DNA from: Erysipelotrichaceae bacterium
GTDB lineage: Bacteria; Bacillota_I; Bacilli_A; Erysipelotrichales; Erysipelotrichaceae
NCBI GenBank assembly: GCA_030531215.1
Contig: JAUNNY010000007.1
Location: forward strand, 1-48,008
Direction: 5' to 3'
DNA: 48,008 nt
Below the pieces are notes generated by a model. That model saw nothing but the letters and a program-made list of their open reading frames with translations, made no database searches and was not told the DNA's origin. Below are positions 1,680-18,598 of the stretch, in pieces; the stretch's first letter is position 1; each line of letters starts with the position of its first letter. Position numbers and translations under genes: made by a program.

Positions 1680-3443
1680 TTATAACGTTATCGTTAATAC
1701 ATTCATGCCGAATGTTGATTGATAGTTCATTGTTTTAGCTATCTTAGATACCATTCTGATGCCAATGTTCTTACATGGATCTTCTGGGTTATACATCTTT
1801 AATTTAGTATGAGGATCAAATGGTACGCAATTGTCTTTTAATCTTATTGTGAATTGTTCATCTTTATACATTACGAATACGTCAATGACGTATTTTTTAT
1901 TTTGTTTTCCTTTAGTGAAACCATGTTCTACTATATTAGCAGCCATCTCTTCTATGCATAGACCACACATATTACTTCTTTTCTTATCTGCACCTTTAGC
2001 TAGGGCAAAGTTAGTAACTTTTTCCGAGATGTTTGTTACTTCATTTATTGTATTAATTGTAATAGCGATCTTATCTTCATCTTTGATACCGAAGTTATTA
2101 TCTAACATCAAGATATCTTCTATTGATGTAGGTATCTTCTTATTCTTGAATGTGCAGATAAGCATTATTAGTAATGTGATACAAATTTCCGCAACGTAGT
2201 AACAAGACCATACACCATTGATACCCATAAAGCTTGAGAAGATATAGACAGTAGATAATGGGAAGATGATACATGTGAATACTAATAAAACATTATCTAG
2301 TTTAACTTTACCTAGACTTTGATATGTATTAGTTATTACTACTGGTAAGATATTTAGTGGCATAGCTACTGCATAATATCTTAATAGTGTAGCTACATAG
2401 TCTATTAAATCAGCTTGTGTACCAAATATGATAGCAATATATTTTGCACAACCAAAGTACAGAATAATTCTAATTAAAGTTAATGCTTCACCAAAGATGA
2501 ATGCAAATTTAAATAAAGTTTTTAGAGAAGTTTTATCTTGTTCGCCATAGGCAACAGAAGAAAGCATTGCAACAACCCCACCTAAACCAATAGCTACCGC
2601 ATCAAATGGTAAAGAGCTTGAGCCCATTACTGATAATGCTGCAGCAGCTTTAGTACCATCAATTGAAGTTGCAACATTATTGATAACTGTATTTCTAGTT
2701 GCGTATAGTAATTCTGTTAAAGCACTTGGGAAGCCTAATATAGCAATCGTTTTAATTAAAGATAAATCAAGACTTATGTGTTTTTCATATTTCATCAAAT
2801 TATCTTTCTTGATGAATAAGAAGGCAATGAATAATAAAGCAAGATACACAGATATTGAAGAAGCTAAACCTACACCAAATACGCCGCCTTTAATTACAAA
2901 GACATTTATTAAACCAAAGATACAGTTTAAGATAGCGATTAATAATGTTCCTACAAAAGCCATCTTAGATTCATTACCCATTTGTAAGAAAACCATCAAG
3001 ACTGGAATCACTAAAGTTGGAACTATACCTACAGCTAAGCCTCTAATATATGTTGAAGTAGTTTCTATGGTTTCTCCAGCTGCACCAAACAAACTTGCTA
3101 ATGGTGTTGAGAACAACAAACACACAGCTGTAAAGATAATACCTAGGACAGTTATTATTTTTATGGCAATAGTAAAAATCTTGTTGATCTTATCAACTTC
3201 GCCTCTTCCTAGACATCTACCACAGAGGATTCTTGCCCCGCCAGCAACAATTACTGATGTTGCACTAAACACTTTTGATAGGGGAGTGGCTAGTCCTATT
3301 GCTGCCATAGAGGCAACATCTAAGTAATTTCCAACAATCAAACCATTGATGATGGCAGATAGTCCAGAAGTAATTACTGAGAAAAATTGGGCAGGCCATA
3401 GCTCAATAAAGAGCTGCTTAACGATTGTGTATTCATTCTTCAT
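1680..3443 (-). CDS. MATE-family transporter fused to a histidine-kinase-type ATPase domain
   Basis: Residues 1-445 form a MATE-type multidrug or metabolite exporter, with an opening like LWPAQFFSVITSGLS and about twelve membrane segments. Residues 457-587 are a cytoplasmic GHKL ATPase domain of the RsbW/anti-sigma type. Its N-box is CIEEMAANIVEHGF (E508/E509, N513), the next box RLKDNCVPFDP (about 534-544), then NIGIRMVSKIAKTMNY. MATE proteins are usually about 450 residues, so the tail is an added domain. The start is supported by AGGTGATT upstream and TATAAT-like boxes shared with the divergent ceramidase-like gene. The ATPase domain could gate transport or act on a partner; this is inference. 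Confidence 0.88.
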   Translation of the reverse strand: MKNEYTIVKQLFIELWPAQFFSVITSGLSAIINGLIVGNYLDVASMAAIGLATPLSKVFSATSVIVAGGARILCGRCLGRGEVDKINKIFTIAIKIITVLGIIFTAVCLLFSTPLASLFGAAGETIETTSTYIRGLAVGIVPTLVIPVLMVFLQMGNESKMAFVGTLLIAILNCIFGLINVFVIKGGVFGVGLASSISVYLALLFIAFLFIKKDNLMKYEKHISLDLSLIKTIAILGFPSALTELLYATRNTVINNVATSIDGTKAAAALSVMGSSSLPFDAVAIGLGGVVAMLSSVAYGEQDKTSLKTLFKFAFIFGEALTLIRIILYFGCAKYIAIIFGTQADLIDYVATLLRYYAVAMPLNILPVVITNTYQSLGKVKLDNVLLVFTCIIFPLSTVYIFSSFMGINGVWSCYYVAEICITLLIMLICTFKNKKIPTSIEDILMLDNNFGIKDEDKIAITINTINEVTNISEKVTNFALAKGADKKRSNMCGLCIEEMAANIVEHGFTKGKQNKKYVIDVFVMYKDEQFTIRLKDNCVPFDPHTKLKMYNPEDPCKNIGIRMVSKIAKTMNYQSTFGMNVLTITL

Positions 3444-3494
3444 AATTAATCACCTATAATTAAATTATACAATTATACGGAAGGATTAGTAATT

Positions 3495-17860: not shown

Positions 17861-17899
17861 AACTACATTTTACATCATCTGTGATAATATTTATTTGTA

Positions 17900-18000
17900 A
17901 CTCAGGGCAAGGTGTGATTCCTTGATTGGCGGTAAACCCCGCGAAGTTAATTGAACTTGTGAAATTCAAGTGGCAACAGTATAGTCTGGAAGAAAGAGGT
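17900..18000 (+). promoter_or_regulatory. FMN riboswitch (RFN element) of ribU
   Basis: Conserved RFN blocks are visible in order: CAGGGCAAGGTGTGATTCCT, GGCGGTAAACCCCGCGAAG, CTTGTGAAATTCAAG, GGCAACAGTATAGTCTGGA, then AGAAAGAGG. The element ends only 4 nt before the ribU ATG, and the ribosome binding site AGAGG (17995-17999) is its 3' edge. There is no room for a terminator, so control must be translational: FMN binding would hide the ribosome binding site. Confidence 0.92.
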
Positions 18001-18004
18001 TAAG

Positions 18005-18598
18005 ATGAAAAAGTATTTAAGTATTCACAATATTGCAAAGATTGCAGTGTTAGCTGCAATTGCAGCAGTACTTATGATTATCGATGTTCCTATTTTTGTA
18101 GCTCCTAGTTTTTATAAATTAGATGTATCAGATTTACCTTGTTTAATTGGTGGCTTTTCAATGGGAGGTGTCCCATGTGTATTCATAATAATAATTAAAA
18201 TAATATTGAAGTTGTTATTTAAACCTACGTCAACTGCTTTTGTAGGTGAAATGGCTGCTTTGGTATGTTCTTTGGCTTTTTGCCTTCCTGCTAGTTATAT
18301 ATATAAGAAAAACAGAACCAAGAAGGGCGCTATAAAAGCAATGGTTATTTCAACGATTATTGTTACTGTTGTGTCTTGTTTGGCTAATTATCTATTTATT
18401 ATTCCCGCCTACGTCAATTTATTTCATATGCCTTTAGAAGCAATTATTGCTGCGGGTAAAGAAATTTTCCCTATTATAAATAACAAACTAGATTTTGTGT
18501 TATTATGTGTGGCACCATTTAACTTAATTAAATATATACTGGTAGATATTTTGTCGCTCGTATCATATAAACACGTATCGCCTTTACTAAAGTCATAG
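18005..18598 (+). CDS. ribU: Riboflavin ECF transporter S component
   Basis: A membrane substrate-binding subunit for riboflavin that works with the shared EcfT-EcfA1-EcfA2 module, which is not encoded in this window. It has 197 residues and about six hydrophobic segments. The typical RibU stretch is FVAPSFYKLDVSDLPCLIGG, followed by GEMAAL. Assignment is strengthened by the FMN riboswitch immediately upstream, whose ribosome binding site it uses. It is transcribed alone and followed by only a weak hairpin near 18599-18612. Confidence 0.92.
   Translation: MKKYLSIHNIAKIAVLAAIAAVLMIIDVPIFVAPSFYKLDVSDLPCLIGGFSMGGVPCVFIIIIKIILKLLFKPTSTAFVGEMAALVCSLAFCLPASYIYKKNRTKKGAIKAMVISTIIVTVVSCLANYLFIIPAYVNLFHMPLEAIIAAGKEIFPIINNKLDFVLLCVAPFNLIKYILVDILSLVSYKHVSPLLKS

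Follow-up and report, generated by a model that had tools for sequence, protein, structure and literature searches.

The window, as we call the whole stretch of 48,008 nt analysed here, derives from an Erysipelotrichaceae bacterium and carries on its reverse strand an ORF at positions 1680-3443 (stop codon included) that opens with ATG and encodes a fusion protein of 587 aa, composed of a MATE transporter and a C-terminal HATPase_c_2 domain. A likely ribosome-binding site, AGGTGA, was read directly 6 nt upstream of the ATG (3450-3455, same strand). Convergent with the fusion gene is a xanthine phosphoribosyltransferase gene (1058-1636), and the starts of two 191-aa proteins encoded beside related fusions, in loci L074 and L080, resemble this enzyme. 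No RNA element was found close to the fusion gene at Rfam gathering scores; the only Rfam match found is an FMN riboswitch at 17894-18005 (78.9 bits).

The two halves of the protein are clearly separable. Residues 1-434 (2142-3443, reverse strand) form the transporter half, which matches Pfam MatE with 108.8 bits against a cut-off of 24.9, and with 116.9 bits falls under the cut-off of 147.4 of the stricter NCBIfam MATE model, TIGR00797. A linker in the predicted model (residues 435-457; 2073-2141) leads to a Bergerat (GHKL) domain of the RsbW/SpoIIAB-like type (residues 458-587; 1683-2072), within which HATPase_c_2 is matched over residues 467-586 with 43.1 bits against a cut-off of 27.4. An AlphaFold2 model of the full protein, made from an alignment of 43 rows (pLDDT 85.9, pTM 0.85), shows long helices over residues 6-434, the linker and a Bergerat fold, and a Foldseek search with the whole model gave MATE structures as its top matches (6hfb, E 7e-16), PfMATE first. 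By its predicted fold the protein belongs to MATE, and ion-coupled MATE function is putative. From known MATE topology we presume that the C-terminal domain lies on the cytoplasmic side of the membrane.

Both halves lie within one called ORF in 79 of 80 fetched relatives (the best 80 of 387). At the sole exception, L149, the whole frame is likewise open and a longer antisense ORF was called instead. The genome from which the window derives also holds a second MATE-HATPase_c_2 copy, of 582 aa, on contig C8. The fusion is therefore neither a matter of chance nor an assembly join, and the preliminary description of the gene product as a MATE exporter with a C-terminal anti-sigma-type ATPase domain is confirmed by the single ORF, Pfam, AlphaFold2 and Foldseek. 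The same genome encodes a further MATE protein of 573 aa (L071:1740-3461, contig C3), whose best MatE match starts only at residue 146 and in which no other Pfam family was found at E 0.001.

To which branch of the GHKL proteins the domain belongs is indicated by its predicted fold. When the domain was modelled alone (alignment of 62 rows, pLDDT 86.7), SpoIIAB, RsbW and UsfX ranked first among its structural matches. In VIA comparisons, Z was 15.7 with UsfX (8ih8), 15.1 with both RsbW (6m37) and SpoIIAB (1th8) and 13.4 with the RsbW domain of Rv1364c, followed by LvrC/SenB of Leptospira (12.7) and SiaB (12.5), and rows titled histidine kinase reached 8.5 or less. HATPase_c_2 was also matched by all 16 fusion domains scanned (E 0.01). 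As modelled, the domain falls in the partner-switch kinase branch, and the anti-sigma type first assigned to it is borne out, in its RsbW/SpoIIAB form, by the Pfam score and by VIA Z values of 14-16. When the sequence of the C-terminal domain was searched singly against the PDB, a match to mini spindles (E 0.039) came up and was rejected as chance; a profile search found SpoIIAB and RsbW.

Residues of the domain were paired with those of SpoIIAB and RsbW through HMM profile alignments to 1th8 and 6m36. In SpoIIAB, as given in an excerpt of the source (PMC10345196), E46 is the catalytic base, N50 is a Mg ligand, H54, G55, G107 and G109 contact the nucleotide, and R105 acts in the transition state. 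The N-box of the window protein, EEMAANIVEHGF (residues 498-509; 1917-1952, reverse strand), supplies E499, N503, H507 and G508 as equivalents of E46, N50, H54 and G55. These four are kept in 82, 81, 79 and 81 of 82 fusion domains from the fetched loci (best 80 of 387 relatives), where the EEMA and NIGIRM columns give counts that are too high, both stretches having served as search patterns; N503, H507 and D537 lie outside them. D537, the first residue of the G1 box DNCVPFDP (residues 537-544; 1812-1835), is the equivalent of D78, the adenine Asp of SpoIIAB, and is kept in 81 of the 82. Both G1 glycines are replaced in the window domain, G80 by C539 and G82 by P541. At the G2/ATP-lid end, DPCKNIGIRM (residues 555-564; 1752-1781), G107 corresponds to N559 and R105 to C557, with K558 adjoining, and G109 is kept as G561, so that SpoIIAB G-x-G reads N-I-G here; the lid is also shorter than in RsbW. 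Of the full GHKL domain with N-box and ATP-lid-like motifs that had been described, the N-box is thus complete and the lid is non-canonical. Loss of ATP-contact residues, named beforehand as the mark of a degenerate domain, is partial: the equivalents of the Glu, Asn, His, Gly55 and Asp are kept, and those of G80, G82, G107 and R105 are changed. Because the G1 glycines, G107 and R105 are not conserved, kinase activity of the domain may be lost.

The transporter half also departs from its closest structural relatives, at the N-lobe cation site. In PfMATE this site includes Asp41 of TM1 and Asp184 of TM5, with which we equate the site residues of VcmN. Numbered as in VcmN, an acidic N-lobe pair is described in an excerpt of PMC7949106 as forming a Na+/H+ site that is broadly conserved in prokaryotic MATEs. 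In the window protein, alignment to 3w4t/3vvn puts Asn33 (3345-3347, reverse strand) in the place of Asp41, and alignment and column counts put Gly177 (2913-2915, reverse strand) in the place of Asp184; the equivalent of PfMATE N180 is retained as N173. The paralogue in the same genome has S and G at the two acid positions.

These substitutions were compared across 93 fusions and 39 ordinary MATEs. The TM1 Asp is found in 37 of the 39 ordinary proteins, the sole near-invariant acidic column among those filled by the window protein; 43 of 92 fusions have another residue there (Fisher p 1.6e-6, kinship ignored). Both acids are absent from 34 of the 93 fusions, both copies from the window's genome included, against 2 of the 39 ordinary MATEs, a set mostly picked as high scorers and hence one that favours canonical sites. 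Asp stands at both positions in 43 of the 93 fusions, and N stands at the TM5 position in 16 of the 39 ordinary MATEs. The replacements track groups of relatives. Of the 44 fusions that lack Asp33 (one of them through a gap), 11 have a STAS or PP2C neighbour, as do 16 of the 49 that keep it. The premise that MATE proteins are ion-driven is doubtful for the window protein, as N33 and G177 replace both N-lobe acids and ion-driven export is accordingly questionable on sequence grounds; the fusion family cannot be called uncoupled throughout, since 43/93 members keep both Asp.

A search for the spread of the architecture, which the preliminary description had proposed, confirmed 387 relatives when each species was represented by one genome. 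The best 80 of these 387 (L074-L153) match at least 550 query residues and come from Erysipelotrichaceae, Solobacterium, Lachnospiraceae including Butyrivibrio strains, Ruminococcus, Spirochaetes and others, many of them from ruminant guts and most of them MAGs. Four of the fusion-bearing Butyrivibrio strains (NC2007, LC3010, XPD2002 and AC2005) have records that carry no MAG label. Within the window's own family the domain occurs in 12 of 145 genomes, as 11 intact MATE fusions confirmed by sequence and one broken copy. The latter (contig C18 of genome G002; L208:9137-9821) consists of a MATE stub and a HATPase half in two frames, in a genome of the window's genus that is 99% complete and retains STAS and PP2C genes. 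In a sample of the phylum the domain was found in 6 of 392 genomes, comprising four with intact MATE fusions, the broken copy just described and one PP2C-HATPase; the last, a 681-aa frame in G321, a genome that bears no fusion, had been considered as a MATE fusion and was rejected. In a quick tree of 132 MATE halves (LG+G4), a single branch (SH-aLRT 99) separates the 93 fusion halves from the 39 ordinary MATEs. The architecture, present in several taxa and confined to one clade of the tree, is old and stable and no local accident.

As the preliminary description had also guessed at a STAS partner, genes near the fusions are informative. Loci were scanned with HMMs built from the STAS and PP2C (SpoIIE-type) proteins of the window's genome and their matches. 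Of 79 fusions (the best 80 of 387 relatives, L149 dropped), 24 have a co-oriented STAS or PP2C gene at a distance of up to 8 kb, as against none of 37 ordinary MATE genes (one-sided Fisher p 2.6e-5); a STAS or PP2C gene lies within 300 bp of 12/79 and 0/37, respectively. The controls are high-scoring MATEs, for which 22 of the 26 fusion genomes searched supplied 40 loci; L172, L177 and L181 were dropped because the fusion-built HMM did not recognise their focal MATE; these three have no match by any HMM, and their inclusion would give 0/40. Loci shorter than 10 kb number 19 of the 80 on the fusion side and none among the controls. Because the relatives are not independent, proteins were collapsed at 50% identity, whereupon 6 of 11 fusion clusters and 0 of 31 control clusters had such a neighbour (p 8.8e-5). 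Along the MATE-half tree, the presence of a STAS/PP2C neighbour requires 13 changes. An annotation-free clustering of neighbours ranked a STAS/PP2C/RsbW group first, reaching 6 clusters, and a group including ABC ATPases second (5 clusters), with an HD-CE group among those that reach 3. The choice of the 26 fusion genomes was guided in part by fusions that adjoin STAS, and in 15 of these genomes a partner lies no more than 8 kb away.

Several gene orders are seen at these loci: STAS-fusion (L090, L091, L095 and L097), STAS-PP2C-fusion-one gene-RsbW (L094), PP2C-STAS-fusion (L112) and fusion-PP2C-RsbW. In two genomes of another family of the class, G316 and G308, which were found in the phylum sample with the domain alone as query, the fusion belongs to a larger operon. 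The G316 locus (L205:7372-19402) encodes a PPTase and then, almost without gaps, a dimodular NRPS with a terminal reductase (2411 aa), the MATE-HATPase, STAS and a PP2C-HATPase, and the G308 locus (L206) has the same order from the NRPS onward. From this arrangement, a partner switch may control the export of a peptide product. In the STAS proteins, the serine of the SSAGLR loop, which by analogy with SpoIIAA/RsbV we take to be the phospho-acceptor, is kept in all 29 aligned sequences, the two from the window's genome included. At 55 of the 79 fusion loci (best 80 of 387) no co-oriented partner was found within 8 kb, and no STAS or PP2C gene was found within the 48-kb window; the linkage holds for the fusion family and not for the window copy itself.

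Co-occurrence by genome extends the association beyond the immediate neighbourhood. In the window's family (145 genomes searched), each of the 12 genomes that bear the domain also encodes STAS and a PP2C scoring above 130 bits, a line that was set after a gap between 137.8 and 87.3 bits had been seen. In the other 133 genomes STAS occurs in 45 and a PP2C above 130 bits in 9 (Fisher p 6e-6 and 3e-12, respectively, genomes being treated as independent). G059 and G115, which belong to the window's genus and lack the fusion, have neither at the same thresholds. Two STAS genes occur in the window's genome, each adjoining a membrane PP2C gene, and a third PP2C there has a 5TMR-LYT sensor. Together with the neighbourhood and cluster counts, this co-occurrence backs the guess of a STAS partner. 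HATPase_c_2 exceeds its cut-off in this genome only on the two MATE fusions, so that the MATE-borne domain could be taken for the only RsbW-like kinase there; this idea fails in 25 of 26 scanned fusion genomes, in which frame lengths point to another RsbW-like domain, and the lack of one in the window's genome may reflect its completeness of 69%. Given these 25 genomes, the MATE-borne domain need not be the STAS kinase, and STAS may instead act on the fusion.

Other transporters in related operons carry tails that recall the domain. In L132 (6703-7791) and L105 (6774-7865), an ABC ATPase gene beside one for an SBP/permease protein encodes a decayed RsbW-like C-terminal tail. These tails gave an hhalign probability of 95% (two-row alignment) and, for L132, an HMM E of 9e-5, with no Pfam HATPase_c_2 match in either at E 0.01; by such comparisons they are likely related to the RsbW-like domain. 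An NCS2 xanthine-type permease adjoining STAS (L117/L118:11020-12774 and L132:10995-12758) has a C-terminal tail that is weakly HATPase_c_2-like, with a Pfam E of 0.048, below cut-off, in one of two scanned and an hhalign probability of 15%. An HD-CE gene adjoins 5 of 79 fusions (best 80 of 387), and by HMM the HD-CE domain is fused C-terminally to MATE-HATPase in six proteins of 886-899 aa, in L138 (7986-10655, where Pfam PF24391 also detects it), L120, L137, L139, L147 and L153. The 298-aa neighbour in L105, considered as a further HD-CE protein, proved to be a HAD hydrolase.

Because an RsbW-type domain is joined to the transporter and genes for the switch protein and the reset enzyme adjoin it in many relatives, the transporter is probably wired into a partner-switch circuit. 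On balance we lean, with modest confidence, towards reading the window protein as a node, tethered to a transporter, in a STAS/PP2C partner switch. A membrane PP2C phosphatase would sense a signal and dephosphorylate STAS at the conserved serine; the unphosphorylated STAS would dock on the RsbW/SpoIIAB-type domain of the fusion and change the state of the transporter; and the domain, with its catalytic Glu and Mg-binding Asn kept, would phosphorylate STAS, which would then be released. The fusion, the fold, the conservation of catalytic residues, the single clade and the linkage to STAS/PP2C by neighbourhood and genome are the computed basis of this reading. Linkage of genes is not binding between products, and the binding and phosphorylation of STAS, the direction of control and the transported compound are what we infer. 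As to direction, STAS acting on transport is slightly favoured. The reverse, which we consider unlikely, is that the MATE half serves as a membrane receptor (transceptor) and signals through the RsbW-like domain, which would phosphorylate or sequester STAS in response to whatever the MATE half has bound, with transport lost or uncoupled in the window clade. The missing N-lobe acids of the window protein, its paralogue and 34/93 fusions would fit such a receptor, as would the occurrence of the replacements in groups of relatives and the broad conservation reported for the lost site in the excerpt of PMC7949106. However, the 43 fusions that retain both Asp, the frequent N at TM5 in ordinary MATEs and the want of any link between Asp33 loss and a STAS/PP2C neighbour (11/44 vs 16/49) all count against a receptor role.

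Rivals that dispense with STAS fare worse against the genomic data. It is distinctly improbable that the domain binds ATP and gates transport alone, as a nucleotide sensor with no protein partner: the conserved Glu, Asn, His and adenine Asp equivalents would suit this, but the enrichment of STAS/PP2C neighbours and their genome-level co-occurrence would be left unexplained, and the fold is that of the protein-kinase branch. We likewise give little credence to the view that the domain has lost catalysis and persists for a part in folding, targeting or oligomerisation. Decay would not predict the STAS/PP2C linkage, and the N-box and G1 Asp are near-invariant across distant taxa (D537 in 81/82, H507 in 79/82), even if the replaced G80, G82, G107 and R105, the shorter lid and the still more decayed tails of ABC and possibly NCS2 transporters point that way. 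That the fusion acts at the membrane as an anti-sigma factor, sequestering its sigma factor there, is very improbable. The fold class does include anti-sigma factors, and in L138 an overlapping ECF-type sigma gene, together with an ABC transporter, precedes the HD-CE fusion; yet sigma genes are not enriched near fusions (1 of 79 loci vs 2 of 37 controls by phmmer with four sigma queries), and the three sigma-region-2 proteins of the window's genome are all encoded on contigs other than those of its two fusions. The sigma-factor partner envisaged at the outset is therefore not borne out.

The tethered-node reading that we favour can be set beside known systems. The fusion family has in common with RsbW and SpoIIAB the fold, the N-box catalytic residues and the tie to STAS proteins and PP2C phosphatases; unlike them, the window domain is fused to a membrane MATE, has changed G1 and lid glycines and gives no indication of a sigma partner. 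RsbU-RsbW proteins of the Rv1364c type and the PP2C-HATPases of L054 and L205, the latter two with STAS nearby, likewise hold HATPase_c_2 within a larger signalling protein, but there it is joined to a phosphatase and here to a transporter. SulP/SLC26 transporters, which carry a cytoplasmic STAS domain according to an excerpt of PMC8256260, resemble the window protein as transporters that bear a component of the partner-switch type; they are its mirror image in that STAS itself is fused, whereas the window protein bears a domain that would read STAS. With MATEs of the PfMATE/DinF type, its best Foldseek and HMM matches, the window protein shares its transporter fold and differs in the extra domain and the replaced Asp pair of the N-lobe. 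Among the matches listed in a search of titles and abstracts (CC-licensed PubMed Central), no paper dealt with a MATE-HATPase_c_2 architecture or with STAS control of transporters.

Partner switches are known mainly for the control of sigma factors. If the fusions are indeed a family of STAS-reading transporters, such switches would reach membrane transport as well, either controlling it directly or sensing through it. The fusions would also offer a kinase and a substrate that can be tested as a pair, in an uncharacterised family from rumen and gut bacteria; in the NRPS-bearing operon the transporter may export the NRPS product. A bolder and tentative proposal, which we think has a minor chance of being right, is that the window-clade MATE, devoid of cation-coupling acids, senses a ligand and reports through its RsbW-type kinase to STAS, and that ABC and possibly NCS2 transporters have acquired the same domain, now decayed; if true, gut bacteria would have a general means of linking transport to STAS/PP2C signalling. 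Two further domain combinations were seen at fusion loci: STAS is joined to an APH-type kinase domain in L078 (4424-5584), and STAS, APH and HATPase_c_2 form one protein in L119 (4697-6274).
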